This document shows, in pieces, positions 10,216 through 57,584 of a stretch of DNA of 64,000 nt. The notes under the pieces are model-generated. The model worked only from the letters and a program-made list of their open reading frames with translations, did not search any database and was not told the DNA's origin. Made by a program: the position numbers and the translations under genes. Position 1 is the stretch's first letter, and each line of letters opens with the position of its first letter. The DNA lies in NCBI RefSeq assembly GCF_000003815.2, contig NC_049992.1, positions 17,225,780 through 17,289,779 on the forward strand. The letters run 5' to 3'. This DNA is from Branchiostoma floridae (lineage: Eukaryota > Chordata > Leptocardii > Amphioxiformes > Branchiostomatidae).

Positions 10216-11130
10216 GATAGGATCTTCAGATGAATAATAGATCATGGATGTACGTACTCCAAGAGGCTGCCCGTATACTTTATTCCTCCAACTCAAACAA
10301 CCCCATTTCCGCCCGCCTATTTCCGCACATAGAGTGTCCAGATCCGGTCATTTCCGTGCAAACTAAAATGGTTTCAGGGAGCGACTTTACTGAGTGACTC
10401 TATTGAGAATTACCAATCAAATAGAGTGATTATCATTAACAAGGCCTGTGTGTTTAGGGCTGTACGACAAAAATTAACTACGTGGGCACAAGGGCATATT
10501 AAAAGGTTTTATGAAAATTCGTCACACAAGCGTTAAGAGTGGTTGTAGAAAGAATCGATTTTGAAAGTTTGCCGGTACAACAAATTTTCGAAAGCCCTCT
10601 TCTACTTCGCTCTTTTCTTTTTCTTCGACCAGTATGATCAAAAACACACCAACGCCTGCCGGTATAATCTGTTTATTTTCTAATTGGTGTAAAATCCGGT
10701 CCACTGATTTTTCCAGGTCCGTTCTATTCCGACCAGTCCAACAATAAAAACAACCGCTTCTGTACCGGTACCGGTACCCACCCCTAATTTGTACATTTTC
10801 TTTAGCTACGCATCTCTTTCTTCCAACAGTCGGAATATGGATTTTGCCGGAGAGAGGAAATCGAAGCTTGCGTGCGTTTTGATAGATTGCACCGTCTTCT
10901 GAAATAATGGGCGGGTGTGATCACAGGAGAGCAGAAGTCAAACATCTTTTCCCGGGCCAGGCTGAAAGCGGCTGGTTCCATCCCGTCACACAATGATTGG
11001 ACCTTCTGTCATTGCATGCCTCTTGATGTTGGGATTCGCTGACGTAAACTCAATATGCGTGACAAGGTGTGCGTAGATTAGCTTGTTTTACACAATCACT
11101 CGCTGTCGTGCTTGTTGGGCCTCCTCCCTA
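10216..11130. other. Intergenic sequence with a probable decayed element
   Basis: 10440-10790 includes CTGTACGACAAA at one side and GTACCGGTACCGGTACCC at the other, reminiscent of the 40.3-40.76 kb unit. Boundaries cannot be defined. No gene recognised. Confidence 0.35.
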
Positions 11131-25990: not shown

Positions 25991-27744
25991 CGAGGGTGCT
26001 TCAAAAAGTAATGTCACTAGTTTGATAACAGGCTCATTTTTTCATCGAATGAGTTGAAATTTGGTACAGAGGTAAAGGTATATATCCTTTTTAGATTAGG
26101 ATATCTCAATTTGTTGTTCAGATTTTTATAAGCAACTGAGTTGATTTCAAGATAACCATACCCCTGGAAGCTTGTCAGAAGATCAGTTCTTCTAGATCTG
26201 ACCCTTTTATAACTACTTTAGGAAGCCGAAATTGCACCTATATAATAACAAATGTCTCTATAGGTCACATGCTAATTTTCATTTCTGAACTTCCAATGGT
26301 TCATATTTTACAGCTGCTAGAAAGGAGCGAGTCACTACATTTTTTTTTTTATTCACATTTCTTTAAAGAGGATGAGACGGAAAGCAGACCCTGCTTATCG
26401 AGGTCTTCTCCTCATGTACATAAACAAAATAAGGACACACATACAGGACTACAAAACGCAAAATAACAAAGTCAAGAGATAATGATAACGACATGAAATA
26501 AAACAACAAGGAATCAAATAACAAAGTGACGTGTAGCTGGCATACAAACTTAGAAGTAATCAAATAAGGTTATAAATCAACTTAAACAACCTGTCTATTG
26601 AACACAAGACATAACTACATGAAAATAAACAAGGAATCAAATAACAGAGTGACATATGGCTGATAAACAAACTTAGAAATAATGATCAAATAAGGTTCAG
26701 CTGAAACGATCTGTCTGTTTGATGAACTTAAACACAACATCAAATAAATGACAGTTCTGAATGGTAGATAGTACTGGGTTTCCCCTGAGTAAGGTTGAAC
26801 ATAAAATATTTTCAGTGGTGTGTCTTGGGTCAAATGGTAAGATAGTGGTTAAAGATGACAACATATCAAGTCTTGCATCATTGTATAGAGGACAGTGTAG
26901 AAAATAATGTATAGTTGATTCGTTAGGGTGGCCACAATTACACATAGGACTATTTACACATTTATGTTGGAACAGGTGGAAATTCAACTGACCGAAGTTA
27001 AGTCTAAGTCTAGTGAGATGGATTGCTGGGTATCTGGGACCATGCGAGAAGTGCAGGTGGGTAGGAGGTCTATAGAAAAAATACTCCAACTCATTTTTGA
27101 AGCTAGCAACAGAGGGAGATACTCTGGTAGTGAGCGGTAGTTGATTCCAAGTCACTACATTGCACGCATTTTGATTAATAGCCAAATGCGTGATTTATTT
27201 ATTAAAGGTATTGTAGACTAATTTTCCATCAACCAAAAGATACGAAACTTGGCACAGTTATTGGCTGTTCCAAGACCAATAGGTTTGCAAATTTTGGTTT
27301 CTTTTATTGTATGAAAAAGTCCACTACATAAACTTTAATCAGCCCACCCCTGATTAACGACACTGATGACCGGGGTCATACCTCACTTCACCCAAGGAAC
27401 GAAAAAAAGAAACATGATTGGATCTCAAAGGTGAAAATTGTTATGTGCCTTATTAAGAAATGGAACTTGATACATGTGCAGTTTCAGCTTCATACAATAG
27501 CTACAAGTGAGTCAGGGATATTATCAATTGCATATTAATTGAATCTCTAATTTCTTTCGACGGGATAACAAGGGTGTGGTCATCTTGACCTCAACTCGGT
27601 CACTCATAAAAACGTGAACAACAAAGTGAGATATCTCAATCTGAAAAAGAGATATGGCTTTACCTTTGTGCCAAATTTGAACTCATTCGATGAAAAAATG
27701 AACCTGTTATAAAACTAGTGACATTACTTTTTGAAGCGCCCTCG
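25991..27744. mobile_element. Long-TIR, TA-flanked Tc1/mariner-type element carrying a nested LINE
   Basis: Ends CGAGGGTGCTTCAAAAAGTA and TACTTTTTGAAGCGCCCTCG, flanked by TA at 25989-25990 and 27745-27746. The inverted similarity runs about 190 bp inward (CATCGAATGAGTTGAAATTT etc.). CGAGGG..TTCAAAAAGTAATG is typical of mariner-like termini. No transposase fragment was recognised; the middle is occupied by a LINE insertion (26341-27149). Confidence 0.8.
26341..27149 (-). pseudogene. 5'-truncated LINE copy with 11-bp target-site duplication
   Basis: Minus-strand ORF remnant from 27149 to a stop at 26697: starts exactly at WNQLPLTTRVSPSVASFKNE and contains LTRLRLNFGQLNFHLFQHKC, then the C-x-C...H-x-x-x-H-C zinc-knuckle-like CNCGHPNESTIHYFLHCPLY common at LINE C-termini. 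Its poly-A tail appears as poly-T at 26341-26350. The TSD AGTCACTACAT is present at 26330-26340 and 27150-27160. The 3' UTR holds a duplicated stretch (CAAGGAATCAAATAACA at about 26507 and 26631). Confidence 0.85.
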
Positions 27745-41608: not shown

Positions 41609-41946
41609 ATGCCGAAAGGAGGAGGGAAGGTTCGGAAGAGGCAGGATTCGGCTTCGTCGGGAGCGGGAGACGGTGGTAATAACGGGGAGAGTGCGAGCAA
41701 CCAGTCGGCGAAGAACTCGAGTAGTACCAACGGGGATGTCCGCGCGGGCTCGCCGGAGAAGGGGTGCTGCCATCCCGTTAACTGCTCCTGTGACGACCCG
41801 CTGGACTTGTCGAAGAACGCCGTGAAGGTGATCTGTAGTAACGAGGGCTGCCCGGAGAGCTCCTACATGCACGACAGATGTTTTGACAAGTGGGAGGACA
41901 GTGTTTTAGACCATCTCTCGTGCGCGCCTCGCATCGTTACAGGAAG
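41609..41946 (+). CDS. Exon 1 of the Headcase/UBA/RRM/CCCH gene
   Basis: Encodes residues 1-112 and two bases of codon 113. The start is the first ATG after an in-frame TGA at 41525, with A at -3 (AGGATG). The first 50 residues are Gly/Ser/Asn-rich and basic. From residue 53 come the paired Cys/His motifs of the HECA_N domain, including MHDRCFDKWEDSVL, the equivalent of the MH..CF..WE segment of Headcase proteins. The donor AAG|GTATGG falls at 41947. The reading frame stays open past the donor to 42010, but homology resumes only in exon 2, so that extension is intronic. This exon is CpG-rich compared with its AT-rich flanks. Confidence 0.85.
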
Positions 41947-44900
41947 GTATGGCCCTTTGGACTTCCGCAATCCAAGCAGAACTTCCTCTTTACTTCCATG
42001 TTTCTTTTAAAAATTATACATAAAGAACATATTTTTAACAGACCTAACAAGGAGGTGTCAACGAGGATAGCGTATAAGCTTGTAAAAATGTTCTTGGTCC
42101 CAAATTGTAAATTAAATTCCGGGGATTTTCGGGACCGCAGAGTGACCTTTTGGTGTTGTAAACAGATGTATATGGTCTTCATTTGAATAACAACATTTGA
42201 TAGAAACCAAATCCCTTTCTTACGATTTCTAAGTTTAATGTATTTGATTGCAAGTAAATGTATCAGTAGACTATACTACGTTTGTTTTTTGTGCAAAAGT
42301 AGACTAGGAGTAAGTTTTTTTATACATTTTTTTTCAAAAGTTTTGTTAACCGTTATATTTAGAAAGAAAATTAAGATGATTTATAAGAAGGTACCACTTT
42401 CTTTTTGTATGTTCTTCTAGGTTTCTTCGATGGCCTAAGGAGAAACGCCGTGAGAGCCTGTGGACCATACGAGGGTATGACCTGGTTAAGAAGGCGCACG
42501 TTGAGGTTAGTCTTGAGAACTTAACATTTTATCTTCAAGAATCTTGTTGCCATGACATTGCAAATGCATGCGGTGTACATGAATCTCTAACACAGTACAG
42601 GGATATTATATAGTCCCGGGCAAGTGAAAATGCCAATCGGGCAAGTGCATGTCCTTCCCCACTTGCCCGATCGGACAAGTTAGCTTTTCTCCATTGATTG
42701 AGTGAGATTTTGATGTACTTGCTACTTTTCAAAGTCATGACATCAAGCATTGATTAACACAGAAAATAGAGCCAATAACAAAATTCCATTGAAGGCCATG
42801 AATATACATAGAAAAATGTCATTTAGATTTCGGGCAAGTGAAAAGTTGGTTCGGGCAAGTAAATTTTTTAAGTACTTGCCCGATAGGACAAGTCAATTTT
42901 AGAAAACTTGTCCAATCCTGCAGAATGAGAGGAGGTGCCCAAGTTTCAATTTTTTTCTGTATGGCTATACTCTAGTGGCTGTGAAGAAATGTAGGTGAGA
43001 ATCCTGGATGTAACTTGTAAAGTGCCTTTCCTAAGGGCACAATTTTGGGGTCATCGATTGAACCCTGGACCTCTTGGTTCTTGGCCAGGGCTCGAAATTC
43101 ATTTTTGGGATTAGGTGCACTGGTGCACCCAGCTTAAAAAATTGGGTGCACCAAAAAAGTTTTGGGTGCACCACTGAAATTAAAGTAAAAACCTAATAAC
43201 AAAACTTAGTTATAAGCTTTCAAATTCTTAAACAACTACCATGAGTCCATGACAGACAATTTTATTTTCTTTCTAACACTTAAGATGTGAAGAATATGAG
43301 ATATACTGGTATACTTGATATCTTTCCATATATAAACCTAAGAAAATATTTGGGTGCACCCTGTGCACCCATTGAAAAAAAATGGGTGCACAGTTCCAAT
43401 TTTGGGTGCACCTGGGTGCACATGTACCCAGTATTTCGAGCCCTGTTGGCCCAACACTCTAACCATTACGTCACGCTGAGGCCACCAACACTAGTTTCAA
43501 GTAGCAGAAATGTAGCTGAAAGACTCAAGTTTGTCATGAGAATACCTACTTCACCTTTTGATACGTAAAGGACAGATAAGGAGTAAGTCATTATCAGGAC
43601 ATTCTCATGATTCTCACGTCAGAACAGTTTGGCCCCAGACCTAGGATGGTTCAGCAGCCAGGGTTAGGGTGTCCTGCTTTCCGAGCAGAGGTTCGGCTCT
43701 GGCTGTTTGTCTTCTTGCGTTTTTGTCAAAATTTCTATTTTGTACCATTTCTTTTAAAGTTTTATGTCTTGCACACAAACTTTAGGTCGTGACTCGTGAG
43801 ACATTAAGAAACGGTACAAGATAGAAAGCCTGATGGAAAAATGCCTAAGAAAAAACCAAAAAAAACCCCAGACATTAGCCTGATTAAATCTCGCTTATAG
43901 CAGCCCGCCAAGGGGAGGGGCCAGTTAGAGCCCTGGACAGCGGAGTTTGTGTTACACAGACTAACCAGACATGGCCTAAGGGTGTCCTGACTTGGACAAG
44001 TTGGTGCCGAATCGTCCCAAACGACTAGGTGCCAAACTGTCAATTGTCAATGTGTGGAAAGATCTGGAATCAGTCTCTGAGCCTGAGCCTTGTACAACCA
44101 AACACATGTGTACAAATCTGTTCTTGTGTTAGTGCTTTTACATTGATTCGTTCTACAACTTCTAGTCTTATCCTGGACATCTGAAACCGGTTTTTGTGGG
44201 CTCTGGGGCTCTGCTTATTCTTTAAGTTTAACTGCTTATTCTTATTATATCACGAACAACCGAGCTCAATGTTGAACCTGTTGCATTGGGATATCCGGAT
44301 GTGTTACAGAGATTTGTCATCCTTGTCCAGAACATGACAACTTACAAGCCTCCATACACTAGTCAGTCTTGTGTTTACATGTATGTTACTGGGTGTTTTG
44401 TGCTTTGGGGCCTAGTAGTAGTAGAGTACTGTTTTTCTACTGTAATAATTAATGTACAGCAGAGCTGATAATACCCCTGAGCAACCTGTGGTGGGCCAGA
44501 CGATTTTGAGATTGCAAAAGAGGGATGTACATAACTAACAACATGAACTCACCAACCTACATACATATACAATGTATATGGCCTCCTTCTATCAATATTG
44601 ACCATTGTAAAATTCTAATTGACAAACATGTACACAAACAAACACACATGTACACACACACACACACACTTGCTGGCTTGCTCGATCACTCAATCAATCA
44701 CTCACTCATCCTTATGATCCCATCTCTATGTACCTCTATCTGTCTGTCTTTGTTATTACCTATCTGTCTATCCAGCCCAAAACACTATTTTTGGTCCCTG
44801 TAGTGTAACGGTACAGTAGTGTAGTAAAGTCCGAATACCTCAGAAAAATCAGAATACACTTCTAAGAAGGCTGCATAAAATTTATAGATGTATTCATCAA

Positions 44901-47900
44901 GTCACTGGCTAATCATGAATTACAATAGGCATTTTTCTAGGATTTTGTTACAATAGGCCTCTTTGTCTCCTTGCAAATTACTTATCCCAGGGTTCTAGCC
45001 AGGATTTCATTTTAGCGTAGTAGGAAAGGCATGGTAGCGAAGCGACCAATCAGGAGATTGGTGTGGAAGGGGGGTCTTGGCCACTCCACGGTGAGATTTT
45101 GACAATGTAGAGTTAAAAGTTTCCACTCTGTTAACTTCACATGTAATTTGAAGGATTTTTTGTTCAGTTTTGAGTGGCATATCATCATTTTTCATTGTTT
45201 AGACATTGATTAGACATTGTTGAACAAGAAAATGATAGCAAAGCACTACTACACTAGTTAAAAATTAGCGTAGTGGCCCTTATGTTAGCGTAGTGGTCAC
45301 AAATTTTAGCGTAGTGGCCCACTACGCTAAAATGCACTAGCTAGAACCCTGTATCCATGCATTACAATATCAATGGAGACCTTTATTGTACATGCAAAAC
45401 CTTCTGAGGTTAAACAAGAAGAGATACTGTTACTTATATTTGAGTGGTCTTTAGTTAAGTGTAAGCTTATGGTACCAATTATAATCTCAGGACACTGCAC
45501 CTGGATACCTGAAAGGTAGCAAAACAGTGATATACAGCATGTCTATACTAGAAAGGACAAGAAAATGTATATATAATGTATTAGAAGAGAAATAACAGCT
45601 ATTCTAAATCTATTTCAAGGGTTCTACTTCTTTTCTGCATTCAGTGGGAGAAATATTGACCTTTTTTTGTTGACAAACAGATTTAACAGAAGACTATTTT
45701 TTGTTGATTGGAAAGCTGTGAAAAAATTATGGAAAATTCTATGAATAATTTATTCACAGCTTGAATCTGGTTCACAGTTAGCAGCTAAAGAATACATGTA
45801 CTAGATAAAAAAACAGATCCATCCAAACTGCTTTCAAAATCCAAGGACGTTATATAACGCCATTGCAAAATCCAGGTCTTATGTGAAATCCCTTCATGTT
45901 GGCCCACTTGTTTGGACTACTGTAAAATGAGAAATGTTTGTGTTGGTTTTATGTTTCAATTTTTCACATATCCTCAAAGATTTTGCTTTTTACAGTAAAA
46001 CCTGGCATGGCAGTTTTAACACCGCTCAAACACTCTATTTTCAGCCTTACCGCGTAATTAAATCCCCACAAATATTACATCTTTTACAGTACTTTGTACC
46101 AAGGAGATTTTGTTTGCCCCAATGACATGCACGTTGTAACAAAGTTCAAAAGTTGATACAATGTAAATGATTAAACCACCATGTTTCAAACTTATCGCTG
46201 CCACCCCTGGCAAAGTACTACGTAGCTGAAAATACCTGTGAGTATTAATATTTTTGTTATCAATGCATACAATAAAACAAAAAAGAAATTCCTTACATTT
46301 TAGGGAGTAGAACAGTTAATAACATTGCTTTTTTTTGTCTGAAAAAGTGTTGTTTGATTTGAGTTTTATTCGAAAACAAAATGGAAAAGGTAGTCCTTAC
46401 CATATGTTTGAATTTTAATGCAACTTTCAAGTTGCCTTTGTAAGAAAAGAGTCACAAATATGACTTTCAATACTGTAAATGTTAAAATTTTTCCAGGCGT
46501 TTTATGATCGCTATCGTTAGGAGTCTTCAATGCGAACATTCATACCACNNNNNNNNNNNNNNNNNNNNNNNNNNNNNNNNNNNNNNNNNNNNNNNNNNNN
46601 NNNNNNNNNNNNNNNNNNNNNNNNNNNNNNNNNNNNNNNNNNNNNNNNGATAAAAACGACTAAAAAAAAAACGTTAAAAACAGCCGGAGCCTAACCTCTG
46701 CTTGGAGAGTATTTGAAGTATTGATAAATGCAGACTTGTTTGATTTAGTCTGAAAATGTTGCATTGGGGTGTCTTGAACACTTTAAAAATAGTGCGACAC
46801 ATTATGAAGCATTTAAAAATCGCACTAGTACTAGTAGCATGGTATTTTATTTTTGACGGTATACTTTAACAGGACAGGTGTCAACTGCTATGTGAAACCT
46901 GGACACACCCTTTTCCCAATGTAACTTGTGACCCAAATTATATACAACACAGCACCTGTAAACAACAGTCAGTATCATGCCTCCAGGCATATAATCCAGC
47001 AATATGTAGAAACAGTGATTGACAGCGTCTGAAGTCTCTTTGTAGCACACCTGCAACTGTATGTTCCTGCTTGGCCAGGCTTTTAGCTAGGATTTTATAA
47101 TAGGGAGTCCAAACTTATTGGTGAGTCGCGGTAAGTGACTATTGTAGGGGGATCTGGGGGCATCCACCTTGCATGGTGCAGAGTTTTTGATGATTTTAAG
47201 TTAAAATAGTGCATTCTAAGGTATCCCAAGAGGCAAAAATACTGTTACAGATGTCACAGTAGAAGACAGTGACCACAGATGACCTGGTAGCATCCCTGGT
47301 CAATCAGAATTTCATGCTTGTCAGAGGATTTTCTCCCCAGTATAGGGAGTCTAGGGGCATCAAATTTCTTGCTATTCTAAGAAAAGTGCATCCAGATGAC
47401 GCGATGACGCATGCCTGGCTAAAAGCCTGTGCTTGGCTATCTTCGTACATTGTAATTGTTTGAAATATACACTGATGTTTGGAAATGTATGTTAAATGTT
47501 TCATATCATAAGGGATATGCAAAAAGTAATGACACTGTTTCGGAGATAGAAACGCAAAGACTTCGATTAAAATGCCTGGTGGGTTTTCTTCTTTCTTTGT
47601 TGTCTTCCGTCCCCTTTATAGTGCTACTGTAAATGCAGAAACATTCGTGGTGTTTTAATATCCGTGGTTTTCAGGGTGGCCACTTCACTGCAAACTTAAT
47701 GCTTGTTTTGTCTTCGGCCGGCCTAACCCTCTGTTTCAACCGCGAACTAGAATAACTCCATTTCCTATGTAGCGAAATTAAATCTCTGCACTAACAGACT
47801 TTCAAGTTACAGTTGTGTGTTAGCACGTCGACCAATGATGATGATGTTACAGTACATTTATCAAAATTTATGGAGGTTAGATATCCAGGTAAACTCTCTC

Positions 47901-50900
47901 TCTCTCGATTTAACATCCGTTGTTCCCAGGCTTTTAGCTAGGATTTTATAATAGGGAGTCCAAATTTATTGTTGAGTCGTGGTAAGTGACTGTTGTAGGG
48001 GGGTCCGGGGGCATCCACCTTGCATGGTGCAGAGTTTTTGATGATCTTAAGTTTAAAAAGTGCATTCTAAGGTATCCTAAGAGGTGAAAATACTGTTATA
48101 GAGGTCACAGAAGAAGACTGTGACCACAGATGACCTGGTAGCATCCCTGGTCAATCAGAATTTCATGCCTGTCAGAGGATTTTTTCCCCAGTGTAAGGGC
48201 GTCCAGAGCGTCAAATTTCTTGTTATTCTAAGAAAAGTGCGTCCAGATGACGCGTTGATGCATGCCTTGCTATGTTCCCTGTCTTACGAGGGTTGGACAT
48301 TGCGGGATAAAATAAATATATAAAAAATATTCAAATGCAGTTTGATCTCCAAAACTGAACTAAAAGTGGAGAATTACTTTGGGACGCTTCGAGTGACATC
48401 CATCACTCTTCTTCAGCATCACTATAATGTGAGTGACAGATGCCGCTCGAAATGTCCTTTTTTATCCTGTTGTAGAGATTAAATTGTATTTGTATACAGA
48501 CTTACACTTACAGCATTTCCTCTCTATGATATACTACCGTAGTGCATTGAACCTTATGCATGTGCATGTGCATATTACAGATTCCAGTCCATCGCTTCAT
48601 ATGCTTCAAGAATTTAGTTCAGTTGTGGCCGGGAGCGGTTTCCTTGATGTATGCCATATTTTGTTTGTGGGGTGTGTGTATTGTCTCGACGTCACATACT
48701 CCTGTTGACACCTGTTTAGAGTGACAATGTTTACAACGAATGGTGCAAAAAAAGTGTTGCGCTATAAAAAAAAATGTTTTACTATGAAAAAGTGTGGCCC
48801 TATTTTATGCAAATGAGTTCATAGCAGTTCACAACCAGTGATGCAGAAAAACAAAAGTGTTGTACTAGGAAAAAAGTGCTGTACTATGAAAAAATGTACT
48901 ATCCCAAAAGTGTGGCCCTATTTTATGCAAATGAGTTCATAGTACATTGTACCACACATTTTTAATAGTACCTCACTATTGTGCACTATGGGTATATATA
49001 TAAACACTGTAATTGAAGGACTCTGATTGGCTGAGGGGTATTTAGATGAATTTCTGTCTGTATCTGTATCTATATAGCCAGTATAACCGACTTCGGCGTA
49101 ACACACCAGCTAATTGGCGTAACACACCAGCAATTTAGGCTTGTGTAAAGACATTTCAGTCTCTACAAGTGGATAAGGTTCAGAGATAACTTCCAGACAT
49201 TTCAAGTGACATCCATCACTCTTCTTCAGTGTCCTGGAATAAACTGGTACATGTAGAACATAGGGCAGTCATACTTGTGGGTATACCAAGTCTGTGTGAC
49301 AGTTTTTTTTGGGCCCAAGTACAGTCTGTGACAGAAAAGCGTCAAAGGAAGGAAAAAAATTCCCTGCAAACTTGACCAAAGCAAAAAAGGCAATAAATAA
49401 TCAGGGGTCGAAATACACATACTTAACTTGCAATTTGCACATAATTTTTGAGATTTGCATGTAAAAAATATTCTGAACTTGCAATATTGCATGTTGAAAA
49501 TACCTGGCCTATAGTAAAAATACTGAGGCCATGGTGCCTTTGTTTGTCTGACGGGGATCGTCACCGGTTGTCAGTAGGTGTTATAAATAATCAAATTTGG
49601 CTTTGCTGCAAACTTACATGCTGATTATGTGGATATCTTTCCAAAATTTCAAGTTCTGTCTATACTTTCATGCGCCAATTTCTGTCAACCAAAAGTGACA
49701 GAATGGGCAAAATTCTTATCTGTCTTGAGCAACAAAATTCTGCCAAAGGACGGAATGATAGATGCTGGCTAGAACATTGCAGTATTTTGCATGTAAATTT
49801 TTCAAATTGCACGTAAAATTTTTGCCAACTTGCAATTTTGCATGTAGCAAAAAAAATGTATTTCGACCCCTGCATAATTCATAAGGACTTGATTAATACG
49901 CAAGTGGGATCCCCCTCTTAGGAGACACCCCCCCCCCCCTAGCTAGATGAGAGAAAGCAAAATTGACATGATGTCTACTAGTAAATATTATCAGAGTGTT
50001 ATCAATTTGGTTCTTCTATACTTCCTTTGTAGAGAGCACAGGACGTCTAGCTGATAATTCAACATGGAATTTGAGATGTCACCTGGACAGGAAGAAGATT
50101 ATGATTGCATTTATTATTCAAGCAGGGGAGGAAATGAAGCCCTCAGAATCTTTCCTGACACACCTGTCTGGCCTTGGAGACATTTGTATATCAAGGCAGT
50201 CATGTTTGGTTGAAGGTAAAACTAGAAAGCCCACATTTTCAAAGAAAATGCAGGATGTTTCCAAAGGGAAAAGAAAAATCGTCAGAAAAGAACAAAGGCT
50301 GATTGTCAAACATGCGATGCCCTGTTCACAAGATGAAAGTGTTGTGTAGATATATCTTGATGAGAAAAAAGAGAAGAATAGATAGAAAATGTCCAAGGTG
50401 TAGGGCTGTGTACCTAAATACCCGTACCTGTACCATACCTTAAAAAATTGTTTAGGTACAGGTCCGGACCTAAACATCTGTATACCTGTACCTGTACCTA
50501 AACAAACTAAATCACTATTAAGTTAAACACTACTTTTTAAGACTACTGGAGTAGTAAATCCTTAATCAACAATGACAATGGTAATAATCTTGCAATTGAA
50601 ACTTAAGAAAACTTGCAAAGAAATTGTTTTGAGATTCAAATATGTAATTCCCCAAACAAAGATGACAATTTATCACTAGAAAACAGTTAGCTACATGTTT
50701 AACGTACAATTACTTGGTTAAACTTTTTTAGGTACAGGTGCAGGTCCGGACCTGTACCTAAACCCGTGTAACTGTACCTTTACCTGTACCTGAAATTTGT
50801 TTAGGTACACAGCCCTACCAAGGTGGGACACAAACCTCCGTCCTACCTTGCACATATGGTTCCTTTGCTGGTTGAGCTTAACTTGTACTTGTGTTGTGTA

Positions 50901-53900
50901 ATGGCGATTTTTTAAATGTTATAAACGGTCCCAGTTCTGAGTTTTCTTTGGCTGACGCTGGAAAAAGAACACAGGCCAGTATGCCAATAAAAACAATATG
51001 TTTTCCTTTGGAAGCATTAATATTCAAAGCCCAGTTGTTTAAGAGGTTTGATTCAATTGAATACAACCACTACACTGGTACATGTATGTCTTTGATTGTG
51101 TATAGAGAAGGTTTATAACCACTGTGGTATTAGTGACTGTGGTATCAGTCAGTGTACCCACTATGAAACCGAAAGAAACACATTATTTCAAACAGTTGCC
51201 ACTATTTCACCAAGCTTTTACCACCTAAATGATCACCAAAAGACTACATTTCTACTAAAAGCACAAAATCCCACCATCCTACAGAATGTGGGACAGTTCA
51301 TTAACCACTGCCTTCAAAGAAGAAGTCAAACCCGACAATAGTATTCATACTCATAGTATCATGTAGTTGATTAGACACTAGTTTTATGTATTTACCTCTC
51401 TTAGTTCTTGAGACTGTATGTGCAATTAGCCCTCGGGCATGATTTTGCAAATAAACATCTTATTATTGCGTTCATAAATTGCATGTGTAACTTGTAGAAC
51501 TTTGTAGCTGTCAGAAAAGTAAACTAACAGTTAGTAACATACTTTGAATCAACAATATGTAACTGTAACTAGTGTAAGCAAAATATTATAAGGGTGAGAG
51601 TTAAAATTCAAGATGTTTTGCACTTTCAGGCTGGCCTCTCTTTTCTTGGACTGTAACCAGAACAAAGCTTGAAGTACGTTAGGATAAACTATTTATCAAA
51701 CCCTGCCATGGTTACGTGCTGAACTGCATGCTGTAGACACAGGTTAAAGTTCACCTTTGTGAACTTCAGTCATGGTCGATAAGTTTGTTTACCGTGTACA
51801 TCCGGTAAGGTCTGAAGGACTGACTTGCACAACTACTTTGAGCTATACTTAGTCATGGCTACTCCCAGTTTTTGGTCATTTTTTGTACATCATAGATACA
51901 TAATCTAGACATTTTTCTTCGAAATTGGTCCGTTGTACTGTACTCTCACCTCTCAAATAAAAGTACCGGTACGTTTATTTTTTTCAGCCTCAAAATCCAC
52001 CCGGTACGTCCTTATTTTAGACGGTACGTTTATTTTTATTTTTTCAAATTGTGGCTTTCTTTACTAACCAGGGACCCCAAAAATATTGAAAGTTTGGTAT
52101 TTTCTGCCCATATTTCCGCGGTATTTTTGCTTAAAATTCACTATTTTTCGGACGAGGCAGCGCGGATTTCCCTGCCGCTAGCACTATGACCCAAACGCAG
52201 GACCGGTTCTGGACTTGCAAAAACGTTTCGGTTCAGGTCGAAAAATACCGAAACCCAGGTGATTCGGTACTGGACTCGTAAAAAAATATATCCTTTTCGT
52301 TTTAGACCATCTTTAACCTTCCAAAAATCTTGAAATTTGCGCTGAACAAAGACGAAAACATCGCCAAACATCGAGGTCACATGCTACACACACAGTCACT
52401 TACTCCCGTAAATTCTCTATAAAAACACAGAAATTAACCACCAACCAAACAAATTAAAAAGTTACCAATACTTTTCCATTATTTTTCACCTGTAGTCAAC
52501 TTGTTTTAATGTTCCAGCAACGAAAAAATCCTTCCAAAATAAAGCATAGCGTTCAATCGGCTCGAAAACATCCGCCATGTTGGATTCATCAACTCACGCC
52601 GAATCTCGCGACATTTTTCTGCAGTACCGTTATTTCTCGATAGGGGCAGTGTCTATGGCCTCATTGGTTTCTGCAACATTGAAAATAGCACAAGTGGTGA
52701 ATAAGGTATTCTAAGTTGGAATGTTTCTTCAAAATGTTATTTTGTAACAATGATAATAAAATAAACTTCTTTTTTTATTTCCTCAATTTTTATTTTCATT
52801 CATTTTTTTACTCAGATAAAGAAATTATGTGCAATAACATAGGAATTATTCTGTTAATTACTTGTACAATTAACTGATATGGTACTGATGCATAAATAAA
52901 TAAAAGGAGCCTACCTGCTTATCATATTGTCTTGGACTGAAGTAGCATGGACACAGTTTACATGTCAATTTGGTATTTTTCCGGGGGGTACTTTTATTCC
53001 AGGGGGTACTTTTATTAGATTTTGAAGATTTGTCCGGGGGGTACAGTACTTTTATTCCAGGGGGTACTTCTATTTGAGAGGTGAGAGTAGATCCGTGACA
53101 CCAGCACCTGTGGTAGTTGTTTGCTCAGAATCTGAAAGCTGTACTCTTCTGTATTTTGTATATATATATATATAGACCTCTATCACGCCTAACCTTTTGC
53201 ACATTGCACATCTACTTTCTAATTGTAGGCGCCGTTGATTTATCTAGTGAGGGTGCTATTTCAGAACTTGGTGGAAGGGAGTTTCTCTCTATGATAGTTT
53301 CTAGGGGAAAATTTTTTTATTCTGGGTTGTTAACTAGGGTAGTACTAATTTTGGTAACTGTCCTGTATGTAAGAAAATAGAGTTGTTCTGAGATTTCTCA
53401 AGCTTAACAGAAAATTCACAAATGTGCATAAATGTTAGGTCACAAGATTGGCTTTTAACAAAAGATGCAAACTTAAACGAATGGCAAATATTTCAGATTT
53501 TCAGTATACTATAATATTGTATATGTGTGTAATAGAACTAATACCTAATGGAGAACATACTAACATTAATGAATGGGGAAGGTACTTGCACAAAGAGAGC
53601 TGTGAATGGCATTCCAATTTCTGAAGCACCAGGGAGCTAATTAATTTGGGTGACTTCACAAAAGCTTTTGAAAATTTTATGTACATATATAGGAGCCTCA
53701 TAGCCTCCATATCAGGCTTTCTGGGGCCTTTTTTTTGCTCATAATACACTTTTGCTGGCCATTTCTGTACTCGGTCGCTGATTGCTGGCGTTTTCTGATT
53801 GCCGGCCTCCGAAAGCCGGCATCCAGACGGCGCATGGAAGTGGTAGAAAAAACGTTTAGCCATTCATCTGCCCTATTAACACATATGTTAGGAATAATTC

Positions 53901-56900
53901 GCAACTCCTTGAGAGGCAATTCGCATGTCGGCTGCAAGCGCTCTGTCCGGTAGAAATGCGTGCAGTTTATTAGCCGTCCACGGCAGGCAGGAAATTCACA
54001 CCTCCTAGTTAATCGCCCTAATCGTTTTTTAATATCACTTTCATGCGCCGTTTGGATGCAGGCTTTTGGAGGCCGGCAATCAGAAAACGCCAGCAATCAG
54101 CGACCGAGTACAAATAGAAATGGCCAGCAAAAGTGTATCATGAGCCAAAAAAAGGCCCTAGAAAGCCTGCTATGGAGGCTAGAGCCTCACTGGTTATGCA
54201 AGGGCTGATCATATGTAGGTGGTACCTATAAATACACAATGTACACCCAGCTATATATACACAGGCTACATGTGTACATGAAGTAAAGACTGTCATTTGT
54301 GCATATATGATCTCTCATTCTGAAGGTTAAATTTCTTACTAGTAAGTGGGTCTTCCAAGATATCTTATTATGTGTATAATGTTGTATTCATGGCTGTATT
54401 GTGCCTCCAGATATGTAAATATTGTGAATTATGGCTAAATTAGGGAATATACATGTATATTTTTTTATGGATCGTAATACAGGTCATTTTGTGATTTAAC
54501 TGATGTTTTTGGTGACCATCTGTAACCTTCCTCTGGCCAATTCTGATTGGTTTACTTTGTATGTTTGTGACCGCAACTGTTAGCAGCGACACCTATCGCT
54601 GCAGTTCAATGTAAACCGGTCAGAATTGCCTTGAGGAAGGTGACAAAAAGTCATCGGTGAAAATCAAGTTGCGGTTGTGTAAAAAGAGTCTCTTTATTCA
54701 GTGCAGGGTTGTAGCCAGCCTGAGATCATTTTCAGTCCCCTTGATTTTGAATGGGAATCCTATCGAGCACCGAAGGCATGGCGTGACGTTGCGCGTCATT
54801 TCTAGGGGTCTGGGTCCCAGAAAATTTTTAGACCCCCAGAAACACTATTTCCTGCATTTTGAGGTGCAAATTTTGCTTGTAGACTAAGCTGTTCAATGGC
54901 ATCTGTTTTGGTGAAGAAGAACAATGGTTTCAATGGTTTTCAAGGGTTTCAATTTTTTTTATATCTTTACATATCAATTTTTGTCTGTCCCAGGGGATGG
55001 AATGGGGAAAACTTTTTTCCATCCCCAGCTGCAAAATTCCTTCAAAGGACTGAAGGAAAGGTACTGGCTACAACCCTGATTCAGTGATTTACATGTTTGA
55101 CATCTGTCTGTTTTGTCTGACCTTGATGTTGTCCATCCCCTGCAGGTTTGTAAGTGCAGATGTGGGAAAGGCTACTTGCGGAAGGACACAGAGTGGCGTC
55201 CAGAAGAAGACACCACTGCTAAAAAGAAGAAACAGAAGAAGGGTGGATCCTCCCAACAGCAGGAACAACAAAAACAACAACACAAACAACAGCAGCAGAA
55301 AGAACAACAACAACAGCAGCAGAAAGAACAACAACCACCAACACAACAACAACAACAAGTCAAGCAAGCGAAACCTACCCTGAACCACCCTGTAGTGAAG
55401 TGGCCTGCTCCATACATGCTGCCTATTTCTGAAAGGTCGACCCCTCCCATACCGGAACATTACATTCCTGGCCTTAATTTTGAGGAGCAGAACGGACAGA
55501 AGAAAAAGAAGAAGAAGAAAAGGTCAAAGTCGGGGAAAAGCGAGACATCCTCCCAGAACTCTGAGTCCAAACCTCCCACTCCTGACGATCTTGAGAGCCA
55601 GGATGTAGAGGAGATAGTAGAAACTGTTGATAAGGAAGAGGGTGTGGTAGAGCAACTAGTAGAGTTGGGTTTCTCCAGACAGGCTAGTGAGGAAGCCGTA
55701 CAAATACATGGTTCCATGGAGGAAGCTTTAGATTCCCTCCTTAAATCCTCTTCCTCTAAAACAAATGGTGATAATAAAATAGTTGATAAAGAATTAAGCA
55801 CCGTTGTGGCGCCGCCACCAAGAAAGGTAGACAGCAACGGTAACCTTACTGTGCCTTACCCAGTACAGGAACTTATGTCCCTGGGTTTTTCGAGAGAAGA
55901 CAGCGAGGCTGCTTTAAGAATTCACGAGTCTTTAGGTTCTGCTGTAGAATATCTAATGGCGCAGCGTCAGTCTGCTCGTTATAGGAATAATCCGCTCGGA
56001 AATGGTTTTGTTGCTAGTCAGCCGCTCGCTCCCACTGTCTTTACACCACGGCCTCTTGATCAATTTTTTCCGCAAAATGGTCCCGCTTTCCCCCAGCAGC
56101 AATTATTTCTTCAGCAAAACGTTGAAGTTCCCATCTCCCAAATCCCCACTCCGTATTCTAACCCGACATCCCAGCTCTTTCCGAGTTTACCCCCGGGGTT
56201 TCTTCAACACCAAGTCCCCACCCCACCCCAGCCCCCACCCAGTGTTCCCTCAATCGACGACCACGTCCCCCTTGAGGCTCCTGCAGTTAAAACTAATGAT
56301 AAAACAGACATGTCTCACGCCATGCAGCGTTTAATGGACATGGGCTTTTCTTATAGACAGAGCGAGGCGGCCTTTAAACAACACGGCCATTTAGATTCAG
56401 CCCTGGATGCTTTAATATCTGGTGAGTTTGACGATTTTAATTGGGAAACGCAGCCCAAACGTAACGCCAATAAAACCGACCCCTTTACCAACAAGGTGCT
56501 AATAGAAAACTCAAGTTCCGAAGCCGATACTACTAACCAGGGTGGCACTTTTCCCTCCTGGCATCCTATGCAGAGTCAGAATTTTATATCCTCTTTAGAT
56601 ACTTTTTCCCTCCCATCCAAAGTGCCTATTGGAACGCCAGCATCTGATAAACAGGGCATGCCAGAGGATCCCATAACGGCCATCTCCGTCAAAGTCCTGA
56701 CAGACATGGGCTTCACTTCGGAGCAGAGCTACAAAGCAATAAAAGAACACGGGACTGTGGAAGCAGCCCTGAACTCTTTAATAACCTCTGCCTTTAACCA
56801 AAGTGGCTCTCTTGATACTGAAGTGTATATGTCTGACGAAGAGGATTTTCCAGAGAGTCTAAGCCCGCCCAAGTTGAACCACTCGAGGTCTGCGTTCCAG

Positions 56901-57584
56901 CCGGTAGCGCCAAGAGCCACGCAGGTTGGACCACGGCTTACCAAAAGTGCCATGTTCCCACATGCTGCTACTGCTCAAGCGCCAGTCTCCTTACCCAAAC
57001 AGCAGCCGACATTTTCCATGCGTGCGTCTGCGCCGGTTGCGGCAAGGCCGGCAGCGCCGAAGGTCGTCGCCATGAACGGCCATCACGGGAAGGCCCCCGG
57101 AGCAACCCCGACCCCGTGCGCCGCCCTATGGGTGGGGAACGTCACCGCCAAAGTCAGCCAGGCCGACCTCCAGACCATCTTCGGCAAGTACGGCCGCATC
57201 CTGAGCATCAAGATCATGCACGCCAAAACCTGTGCCTTCGTGAACTTCACAAACATGGCGGACGCCACCAGGGCGCGCGACGGGCTCCAGGGGACGGAGA
57301 TCGGAGGGATGGAGCTGGTCATCCGTTTCCCGGACAACCCGATCATCAACGCCGACGGCAACTTCCTCATGATGAAGTCCAAACTGAAGACCGGTAACCA
57401 GACGGGAGGCCAGTCAGCCGGGAAAGTCAGCCAATCACAGAGCTCGTACCAGCAGGGGAAGATGAAGGGTCCCGTGGAGACGGAGTTCGGAGAGGAGTGC
57501 TTCTTCTATCGCACCACCGGCTGCCATTTTGGAAAGAACTGTTCCTACTTACATATCTCCCACCATAAGGGAGTTGATCTTTGA
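41609..57584 (+). CDS. Headcase-domain / 4xUBA / RRM / CCCH zinc-finger protein, three exons, 953 aa
   Basis: Spliced model: exons 41609-41946, 42421-42505 and 55146-57584, introns GT-AG, phases 2 and 0. Domains by residue: Ser/Gly-rich basic N-terminus 1-50; HECA_N-like Cys/His domain about 53-161 (CCHPVNCSC, CSNEGCPESSYMHDRCF, SLWTIRGYDL, then CKCRCGKGYLRKD); poly-Q 178-215; Lys-rich patch 260-272, a likely nuclear localisation signal; UBA-like repeats at about 303-343, 380-417, 530-567 and 650-690, each with an LGFS/MGFS/MGFT loop; RRM 799-875 (RNP2 LWVGNV, RNP1-like CAFVNF); CCCH finger C926-C934-C940-H944 (spacing C-x7-C-x5-C-x3-H). Known of the families: Headcase is a growth and differentiation regulator that binds the CCCH protein Unkempt; UBA domains bind ubiquitin; RRM and CCCH bind RNA. 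Inferred role: RNA-bound regulator coupled to ubiquitin. The C-terminal Headcase domain of human HECA is not seen, so I do not use that symbol. The splice model is strong; the function is inferred. Confidence 0.88.
41947..42420 (+). other. Intron 1 (474 bp, phase 2)
   Basis: GT...AG intron between exons 1 and 2, AT-rich with a long T-rich stretch (42290-42418) before the TTCTTCTAG acceptor. No repeat or other feature was recognised in it. Confidence 0.8.
42421..42505 (+). CDS. Exon 2 of the Headcase/UBA/RRM/CCCH gene
   Basis: An 85-bp exon with acceptor TTCTTCTAG|G and donor GAG|GTTAGT. Its first base completes codon 113 (Arg); 28 codons follow, ending in phase 0 at residue 141. It encodes FLRWPKEKRRESLWTIRGYD and then LVKKAHVE. 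This matches the Headcase segment that reads roughly N-[LM]-W-T-K-K-G-Y-D-L and joins directly to the C-x-C-R-C-G motif in exon 3. The exon is too short to show up as an open reading frame and was found by homology and phase. Confidence 0.82.
42590..42912. mobile_element. MITE built of GGGCAAGT/ACTTGCCC palindromes (intron 2)
   Basis: CAGGGATATTATATAGTCCC, then GGGCAAGTGAAAA; later TTCGGGCAAGT, ACTTGCCCGATAGGACAAGT and AACTTGTCCAATCCTG. Repeated GGGCAAGT and its complement would pair extensively. Boundaries are approximate. Confidence 0.55.
43010..43485 (-). repeat. tRNA-like SINE split by a MITE (intron 2)
   Basis: On the - strand an A-box-like TGACGTAATGGTTAGAGTG lies at 43455-43473 and a B-box-like GGTCCAGGGTTCAATCG near 43053-43068, followed by the GTGCCCTTAGGAAAGGCACT core also found at 19.48 kb. 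A 360-bp MITE (43086-43445) sits between the two boxes. Confidence 0.7.
43086..43445. mobile_element. CAGGGCTCGAAAT-ended MITE made of GGTGCACC repeats (intron 2)
   Basis: CAGGGCTCGAAATTC / GTATTTCGAGCCCTG ends; the interior holds many TGGGTGCACC words and their complements. TTGGC flanks both sides (43081-43085, 43446-43450), a candidate 5-bp TSD. CAGGG ends fit hAT-like elements. Confidence 0.82.
43877..43965. repeat. Dispersed repeat, GCGGGCTGCTACAAGCGAGA family, copy 2
   Basis: AGCCTGATTAAATCTCGCTT then ATAGCAGCCCGCC is the inverse of 36370-36425. Confidence 0.6.
44640..44780. repeat. (CA)n and (CTGT)n simple repeat
   Basis: CACACATGTACACACACACA then ATCTGTCTGTCT runs. Confidence 0.7.
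44988..45351. mobile_element. CAGGGTTCTAGC-ended MITE (intron 2)
   Basis: CAGGGTTCTAGCCAGGATTT and inverted CTAGCTAGAACCCTG. Next to the ends, TTTTAGCGTAGTAGG and CCACTACGCTAAAAT are also inverted, and GTAGTGG is repeated. TATCC flanks both sides (44983-44987, 45352-45356), a candidate 5-bp TSD. Confidence 0.8.
46549..46648. other. Assembly gap (100 N)
   Basis: Exactly 100 undetermined bases inside intron 2, the usual placeholder for a gap of unknown size. Confidence 0.98.
47079..47412. repeat. Dispersed repeat copy A (GGCTTTTAGCTAGGATTTTA)
   Basis: About 335 bp that is about 90% identical by eye to 47928-48264, in the same orientation. Begins GGCTTTTAGCTAGGATTTTA and ends near CCAGATGACGCGATGACGCA. 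GGTTCTAGCCAGGATTT-like ends suggest kinship with the CAGGGTTCTAGC MITEs, but the right terminus (GCATGCCTGGCTAAAAGCCT) is clear only in this copy. Confidence 0.75.
47928..48264. repeat. Dispersed repeat copy B (GGCTTTTAGCTAGGATTTTA)
   Basis: Second copy of the unit at 47079. Unlike copy A it lacks the closing GGCTAAAAGCC, so its right end is truncated. Confidence 0.75.
48345..48495. repeat. Palindromic retroelement-like tail with hammerhead-like hairpin (intron 2)
   Basis: - strand: GCTGAAGAAGAGTGATGGAT then GTCACTCGAAGCGTCC; + strand: GTGAGTGACAGATGCCGCTC then GAAATGTCC, followed by the same TATCCTGTTGTAGAGATTAA tail as at 640-665. Confidence 0.6.
49045..49140 (-). pseudogene. LINE tail family A, very short fragment (intron 2)
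   Basis: Only the 3' tail: GTGTGTTACGCCGAAGTCGG, TTATACTGGCTATATAG and GATACAGATACAGAC, as at 6.35 and 18.74 kb. TGGTGTGTTACGCC is duplicated. Confidence 0.6.
49140..49240 (-). repeat. Retroelement-like tail with hammerhead-like hairpin (intron 2)
   Basis: - strand: CACTGAAGAAGAGTGATGGA then TGTCACTTGAAATGTCTGGA, followed by TATCCACTTGTAGAGACTGA. Confidence 0.6.
49402..49872. mobile_element. CAGGGGTCGAAATACA-ended MITE (intron 2)
   Basis: CAGGGGTCGAAATACA and TGTATTTCGACCCCTG ends. Subterminal ACTTGCAATTTGCACATAAT / ACGTAAAATTT...AACTTGCAATTTTGCATGTA repeats. Ends are similar to the 43086 element, so the two probably share a transposase source. The flanks (ATAAT / CATAAT) do not give an exact TSD. 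Confidence 0.8.
50401..50817. mobile_element. hAT-like MITE with 8-bp TSD CCAAGGTG (intron 2)
   Basis: TAGGGCTGTGTACCTAAA / TTTAGGTACACAGCCCTA ends; multiple GTACAGGTCCGGACCT and GTACCTGTACC palindromic words. CCAAGGTG duplicated at 50393-50400 and 50818-50825 fixes the 417-bp unit. Confidence 0.92.
51943..53087. mobile_element. TA-flanked element with CTCTCACCTCTCAAATA TIRs, 1.15 kb (intron 2)
   Basis: CTCTCACCTCTCAAATAAAA at the left, CTTCTATTTGAGAGGTGAGA at the right, TA on both sides. GGTACTTTTATT and GTACGTTTATTTTT words cluster near both ends. The interior has no frame with a known domain; a non-autonomous mariner-like element is likely. Confidence 0.78.
53701..54181. mobile_element. 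hAT-like MITE with 8-bp TSD GAGCCTCA and about 165-bp TIRs (intron 2)
   Basis: TAGCCTCCATATCAGGCTTT...GGCCATTTCTGTACTCGGTC...GCTGATTGCTGGCGTTTTCT and its inverse at 54020-54181. GAGCCTCA at 53693-53700 and 54182-54189. The 200-bp centre is unique. A solo arm lies at 29.57 kb. Confidence 0.93.
54480..54695 (+). repeat. Structured retroelement-like tail (intron 2)
   Basis: GTTAGCAGCGACACCTATCG then CTGCAGT, TAAACCGGTCAGAATTGCCT, GAGGAAGGTGACAAAAAGTC and ATCGGTGAAAATCAAG. Same order as the - strand unit at 34.7 kb; the second hairpin and GAAAC are partly decayed here. Confidence 0.55.
54704..55078. mobile_element. hAT-like MITE with 8-bp TSD ATTCAGTG, 67 bp before exon 3
   Basis: CAGGGTTGTAGCCAGCC / GTACTGGCTACAACCCTG ends; ATTCAGTG at 54696-54703 and 55079-55086. 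The interior has words such as GGGGTCTGGGTCCCAG. It ends 67 bp upstream of the exon 3 splice junction. Confidence 0.93.
55146..57584 (+). CDS. Exon 3 (terminal coding exon) of the Headcase/UBA/RRM/CCCH gene
   Basis: A 2,439-bp exon that codes for residues 142-953 without interruption. The acceptor is CCATCCCCTGCAG|GTTTGT with a CTGAC branch-like sequence upstream. The open frame starts 33 bp earlier at an ATG (55113), but that ATG lies inside the polypyrimidine/acceptor region and is not used in this model. The exon carries the CRCG end of the Headcase domain, the poly-Q tract, the basic patch, four UBA-like repeats separated by 35-110-residue Pro/Ser/Gln-rich linkers, the RRM and the CCCH finger, which ends nine residues before the stop. 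From about 57000 to the end, third codon positions become strongly G/C, unlike the earlier part. Confidence 0.9.
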   Translation, partial: VCKCRCGKGYLRKDTEWRPEEDTTAKKKKQKKGGSSQQQEQQKQQHKQQQQKEQQQQQQKEQQPPTQQQQQVKQAKPTLNHPVVKWPAPYMLPISERSTPPIPEHYIPGLNFEEQNGQKKKKKKKRSKSGKSETSSQNSESKPPTPDDLESQDVEEIVETVDKEEGVVEQLVELGFSRQASEEAVQIHGSMEEALDSLLKSSSSKTNGDNKIVDKELSTVVAPPPRKVDSNGNLTVPYPVQELMSLGFSREDSEAALRIHESLGSAVEYLMAQRQSARYRNNPLGNGFVASQPLAPTVFTPRPLDQFFPQNGPAFPQQQLFLQQNVEVPISQIPTPYSNPTSQLFPSLPPGFLQHQVPTPPQPPPSVPSIDDHVPLEAPAVKTNDKTDMSHAMQRLMDMGFSYRQSEAAFKQHGHLDSALDALISGEFDDFNWETQPKRNANKTDPFTNKVLIENSSSEADTTNQGGTFPSWHPMQSQNFISSLDTFSLPSKVPIGTPASDKQGMPEDPITAISVKVLTDMGFTSEQSYKAIKEHGTVEAALNSLITSAFNQSGSLDTEVYMSDEEDFPESLSPPKLNHSRSAFQPVAPRATQVGPRLTKSAMFPHAATAQAPVSLPKQQPTFSMRASAPVAARPAAPKVVAMNGHHGKAPGATPTPCAALWVGNVTAKVSQADLQTIFGKYGRILSIKIMHAKTCAFVNFTNMADATRARDGLQGTEIGGMELVIRFPDNPIINADGNFLMMKSKLKTGNQTGGQSAGKVSQSQSSYQQGKMKGPVETEFGEECFFYRTTGCHFGKNCSYLHISHHKGVDL

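Follow-up and report, generated by a model that had tools for sequence, protein, structure and literature searches.

Unkempt is a CCCH/RING protein, and Headcase is a regulator of growth. In the fly, Unkempt is bound by Headcase, and Headcase acts with Unkempt downstream of mTOR (PMC4161320). Human HECA is reported to contact components of mTORC1 (PMC7895379). The gene described here lies in the window, which is the whole 64,000-nucleotide stretch of Branchiostoma floridae DNA that was analysed. It has the HECA_N domain in common with canonical Headcase/HECA over the whole length of the domain, with all nine cysteines of this genome's own canonical copy conserved, but it carries UBA, RRM and CCCH modules in place of the Headcase domain (PF16002) of the canonical protein. 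CCCH-type RNA binding is an idea common to the window gene and to Unkempt, whose link to Headcase is one of partnership. The two are likened by description and not by sequence; the window gene has one CCCH finger and no RING.

The window gene is a new domain arrangement of known parts. Among the matches listed by literature searches on Headcase, HECA, Unkempt, mTORC1 and the domains, no title or abstract opening describes this arrangement, and no title among those listed for HECA_N by name concerns the domain itself. The search for headcase in amphioxus found no papers.

Gene model and HECA_N domain

The spliced model of 2862 nt codes for 953 amino acids and a stop in three forward-strand exons (41609-41946, 42421-42505 and 55146-57584). 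Both introns are of the GT/AG type, with the borders AAG/gtatgg and ttctag/G for intron 1 and GAG/gttagt and ctgcag/G for intron 2. Exon 1 contains the start codon, a Ser/Gly-rich leader and the first part of HECA_N, as judged from its translation, the donor AAG/gtatgg and the match to canonical HECA. Exon 2, delimited by its splice borders and the canonical HECA match, codes for the middle of the domain. Intron 2 (42506-55145, forward strand) is 12.6 kb long and contains a 100-N assembly gap at 46549-46648. Exon 3 is a single open frame of 812 codons and a stop, which codes for the end of HECA_N, a Q/K-rich linker, four UBA domains, the RRM and the CCCH finger and is unbroken through all the modules of the tail. 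The Q-rich part of the linker (55254-55370, forward strand) is coded by a CAA/CAG-rich repeat. The first methionine of exon 3 is residue 91 of the exon, or residue 232 of the protein.

The first-pass annotation had placed HECA_N, UBA, RRM and CCCH parts in a single three-exon gene and proposed a profile search of its 953 residues. This search, now run against Pfam, finds HECA_N (PF15353) at residues 53-158, covering positions 2-102 of the 102 in the profile with 94.9 bits (cut-off 27). UBA and RRM also score above their cut-offs, and the proposed architecture is borne out, apart from the profile score of the CCCH finger. Translated alone, exons 1 and 2 give 76.4 bits and cover positions 2-86; the last 16 profile positions are reached only when exon 3 is added. 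They correspond to the motif CxCxCGxGxLRKDxxW at 55146-55196 (forward strand), an assignment based on the gain in bit score and on a match to canonical HECA with an E value of 1.3e-6. That match comes from a tblastn search of the full window with the HECA_N domain of canonical Headcase, run up to E 1 with the low-complexity filter off, which gave four matches. Three of them follow one another in the expected order, at 41765-41932 (E 3.6e-14), 42413-42496 (E 2e-5) and 55143-55214 (E 1.3e-6), and the fourth and last is on the other strand, at 10714-10803 (E 0.21). The window HECA_N is 48% identical to the canonical one over 102 aligned positions and keeps 10 of its 12 Cys/His residues (9/9 Cys and 1/3 His). 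With the HECA_N-bearing end as query, a PDB search gave two matches (E 0.74 and 0.79) and no clear relative.

Compared with other HECA_N copies, the window domain has an excess of four residues at the junction of exons 2 and 3. Because of this excess, the exact donor of exon 2 is either 42505 or the alternative at 42499, which looks weaker by eye. In the second of two HECA_N copies on C19 (C19b), one exon begins, as exon 3 does, in phase 0 and three residues ahead of CxCG, when the residues are counted back from this motif by eye; in the automatic alignment, the two exon starts fall in different columns owing to the four extra residues of the window gene.

The long-range join between exons 2 and 3 would by itself be weak, given the 12.6 kb and the 100-N gap that separate them. 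The fusion is independent of that join because the end of HECA_N shares the frame of exon 3 with the UBA, RRM and CCCH modules. Exon 3 was also considered as a separate gene and rejected, as the end of HECA_N lies inside it. The sequence thus supports the fusion of HECA_N, UBA, RRM and CCCH modules in one predicted chain of a probable gene, and the case for one chain is firmer than it was when first claimed. Whether domain shuffling in lancelets is real or an artefact of annotation is disputed (PMC4967905; reportedly also PMC4284660), and a fusion for which the evidence lies within a single exon bears on this dispute.

HECA_N genes elsewhere in the genome

A genome search with HECA_N gave at least five matches at no fewer than four loci, namely one on C177, one in the window and two on C19 (all ten candidates scored). 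The search with PF16002 found one match, on C177, with 255.4 bits (all six candidates scored), a count that is a lower bound. Neither search gave a match in any of the 14 control genomes. On C177, HECA_N scores 162.7 bits and the Headcase domain follows 1.7 kb beyond it on the same strand. The sequence of this locus is that of a canonical two-domain Headcase gene, separate from the window gene. PF16002 is absent from the 953 residues (Pfam, E up to 1), and a search of the window with the Headcase open frame of C177, up to E 1, found nothing. The window gene is not a Headcase orthologue, because a domain that defines the family is missing from it and the genome has a canonical gene as well. The possibility that it is the only Headcase of this genome was rejected in view of the C177 gene.

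In the 40 kb around the C177 gene, about 38 kb of which lie downstream of its HECA_N, nothing significantly resembles the UBA/RRM/CCCH tail of the window gene; the two matches obtained (E 3.1 and 4.1) are unrelated. The first-pass annotation had gone on to suggest that the function of the Headcase family is directly linked to RNA. This suggestion is not supported, given the canonical HECA_N and Headcase gene on C177, the lack of a tail match in its 40 kb and a window gene devoid of PF16002.

The two C19 copies resemble the window gene in having HECA_N with no Headcase domain found nearby, and in C19b an exon also starts equally far ahead of CxCG. The 20 kb of sequence examined for each copy contain neither a Headcase domain nor a tail of the window type. 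They differ from the window gene in the Trp-rich open frame that comes next on the strand of HECA_N, at a distance of about 4 kb in C19a (4040510-4041022, reverse strand) and of about 0.7 kb in C19b (15060233-15060787, forward strand). Each frame has two Trp-rich, WWxxxGW-like motifs, and the two frames match each other with a pairwise E value of 1.4e-8; a Pfam search up to E 0.1 gives no family for them. From their position and double occurrence, we infer that each frame is part of the HECA_N gene that it follows, and the Trp-rich C-terminus is perhaps an undescribed domain tied to HECA_N. HECA_N seems to be carried on three different C-termini in one genome: Headcase, Trp-rich and UBA-RRM-CCCH. 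Three such C-termini would make the true partner of the domain directly testable.

The UBA-RRM-CCCH tail and its relative on C4

The first-pass annotation had counted four UBA repeats. Pfam detects the fold with 61 bits as UBA_7 and 50.7 bits as UBA, and by either model three stretches, not four, pass alone; the single UBA of a gene on C4, described below, matches all four places in exon 3 (from 55662, 55881, 56337 and 56703). All four lie on the forward strand. UBA 1 (55638-55733) has an LGF loop, contains the best UBA_7 stretch (residues 306-337) and is 63% identical to the C4 UBA over 27 residues. UBA 2 (55863-55949), also with an LGF loop, contains the best stretch of the Pfam UBA model (residues 381-409) and matches the C4 UBA with an E value of 0.002. 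The loop is MGF in UBA 3 (56322-56423; C4 match from 56337, E 3.6e-5) and in UBA 4 (56688-56789), the copy collinear with the single UBA of C4. Over 29 residues each, the copies are 28-48% alike among themselves and 41-59% alike to the C4 UBA, and their multiplication is therefore not recent. UBA 4 is connected to the RRM by a linker with the sequence EVYMSDEE (56820-56843, forward strand), and the C4 gene has EVYLSDEE at the equivalent place.

The RRM (57126-57317, forward strand; RRM_1, residues 802-865, 54.8 bits, cut-off 20.7) has LWVGNV as RNP2 and KTCAFVNF as RNP1. Among its 60 best PDB matches of 68, the first are RBM9/RBFOX and PABP chains, and RBM22 is also present. RNP2 and most of RNP1 are kept, and the third position of RNP1 is a cysteine, as it is in C4. 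Most RNA-binding RRMs have an aromatic residue at this position; the RRM of RBM22 has a cysteine there too. Judged from this residue, RNA binding by the window RRM may be weak or unusual. The CCCH finger (57498-57554, forward strand) has the exact spacing C-x7-C-x5-C-x3-H noted in the first pass, and this spacing is identical in the C4 paralogue, to which the finger and its flanks are 57.5% identical over 40 residues. The spacing thus stands, but the profile does not confirm the finger: zf-CCCH scores 10.1 bits, below its cut-off of 20.5.

Nine NCBIfam families match exon 3 at E up to 0.01, all below their own cut-offs: seven are RNA-binding models, one is for a polymerase subunit and lies over the linker, and RuvA lies over a UBA. 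Pfam finds no TPR family in the 953 residues at E up to 1. An AlphaFold model of the RRM-CCCH region calculated from one sequence is too poor for use (mean pLDDT 35.7); it has the RRM order of strands and helices, without confidence.

A genome search with exon 3 gave three matches among 14 candidates, all of which were scored: exon 3 itself, the C4 gene and an RRM on C3. The C3 match was rejected as a relative of the whole tail, as it covers the RRM only (45% over 64 residues) and looks hnRNP C-like by eye. The C4 gene, which we take to be TTC31-like (TTC31 family), has three TPR, UBA, RRM and CCCH parts at C4:17337260-17348678. Its tail is encoded by eight exons bounded by AG acceptors and GT donors, with the stop at the end of the final exon, and codes for UBA, EVYLSDEE, RRM and CCCH in the same order as the window gene. 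The two tails align with an E value of 4.7e-43 and 30% identity over 346 columns, and their local score of 354 compares with a maximum of 66 in 500 shuffles. Searched without a filter, the C4 tail also hit the Q-rich linker and further stretches of low complexity in the window, at E 6e-4 or weaker; these matches were given no weight.

The C4 gene and the window gene are thus collinear over UBA, the EVYxSDEE linker, RRM and CCCH. They differ in that the C4 gene has one detected UBA where the window gene has four, has TPRs and no HECA_N, and has seven introns in its tail, none of which is present in exon 3. Upstream of the C4 tail, on the same strand, there are a K/E-rich stretch and pieces that code for three TPRs; joined by eye, these pieces reach 61.9 bits with TPR_2. 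A DnaJ piece (33.8 bits, cut-off 27.8), possibly part of the same gene, lies about 5 kb ahead of the first of them. Human TTC31 is described as having a coiled coil, then three TPRs, and a C-terminus that is disordered (PMC7279152), and the front part of the C4 gene, K/E-rich with three TPRs, fits that description. If human TTC31 is without a UBA-RRM-CCCH tail, half of the gene, the part that would bind RNA, may have been lost in vertebrates.

The lack of all seven C4 introns in exon 3 would be most simply explained if the tail were a retroposed intronless cassette joined to a HECA_N paralogue. The C4 gene could also have gained its introns, or the window gene could have lost them.

Possible mechanism, alternatives and surroundings of the gene

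By combining these observations, it is possible to outline how the window gene might have arisen and what its product might do. The gene is probably a domain-shuffled Headcase paralogue with a tail from a TPR-UBA-RRM-CCCH homologue, and its product would act as an RNA-bound adaptor; this is the explanation that we favour with good, though not full, confidence. The N-terminal, Cys/His-rich HECA_N would derive from a HECA_N gene. The C-terminal half, homologous to the tail of the C4 gene, probably entered a HECA_N exon as an intronless retroposed cassette, and its UBA would have multiplied from one to four. In the protein, the RRM and the CCCH finger would bind RNA, the latter presumably with zinc, the four UBA domains would bind the ubiquitin carried by client proteins or factors, and a docking surface may be offered by HECA_N. 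The RNA-bound adaptor would then bring ubiquitin-marked proteins, perhaps partners from the Headcase/mTOR pathway, to chosen transcripts. Every functional step of this mechanism is inferred from the sequence.

A natural fusion points to activities that may work together with HECA_N, here the binding of RNA and of ubiquitin. The presence of RNA and ubiquitin parts beside HECA_N fits both the Headcase-Unkempt complex and the contact of HECA with mTORC1 that are reported in PMC4161320 and PMC7895379. A bolder speculation, which we regard as improbable, is that HECA_N is a mobile recruitment module, placed here on an RNA- and ubiquitin-binding chassis, and that the product is a single-chain counterpart of Headcase-Unkempt through which nutrient (mTOR) control would reach chosen mRNAs without Unkempt.

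The architecture itself would be an artefact if the gene model had misjoined two neighbouring genes, a HECA_N gene (exons 1 and 2) and a UBA-RRM-CCCH gene (exon 3). What looks like a new order of domains in a lancelet can be the product of a prediction that merged adjacent genes, and PMC4967905 gives a lancelet example in its section 12; here, exons 2 and 3 are indeed separated by the 12.6 kb intron with its 100-N gap. An artefact of that type does not cover the present fusion, because the join falls within one exon. The end of HECA_N is in frame at the splice acceptor of exon 3, at the same position as in C19b by eye, and translation from the first methionine of exon 3 would leave it untranslated, which makes a misjoined model very unlikely. 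A chimera of the assembly inside exon 3, uniting a HECA_N exon with an unrelated exon, for example by way of the CAA/CAG repeat, would place the error exactly where that repeat sits, between the end of HECA_N and the first UBA. The frame is nevertheless open through the repeat to the stop, and the genome search with exon 3 revealed no second high-identity copy of the whole tail among the 14 candidates scored; such a chimera is very improbable.

If the chain is accepted as real, HECA_N might still be a functionless remnant and the protein a second TTC31-like RNA-binding protein. The divergence of the domain from the canonical one and the four extra residues near its end are in agreement with such a remnant; the canonical Cys/His residues that it keeps and its intact reading frame speak against it, and we consider it an unlikely reading. 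The HECA_N-UBA-RRM-CCCH protein may otherwise represent an old animal family that was later lost in vertebrates, instead of a fusion in the lancelet line. The low similarity of the UBA copies to each other and the roughly 30% identity of the tail to C4 indicate that the event was not recent, but no title or abstract opening among the literature matches listed describes such a family, and this origin seems somewhat doubtful. It overlaps with the domain-shuffled adaptor that we favour, which leaves the age of the fusion unfixed, and the age is independent of the mechanism.

Rfam and tRNA scans of the window gave no matches. An open frame at 26700-27194 (reverse strand) resembles by eye, unscored, the Cys/His end of non-LTR reverse transcriptases. 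Intron 2 contains a 273-nt direct repeat (47075-47347 and 47926-48198), the copies of which are 93% alike and 851 nt apart; it may be a mobile element or a tandem one. Further along the intron, two pairs of inverted repeats lie next to each other (53701-53852 and 54026-54181); with 87 nt 92% and 66 nt 94% complementary, they have the shape of a small DNA transposon.
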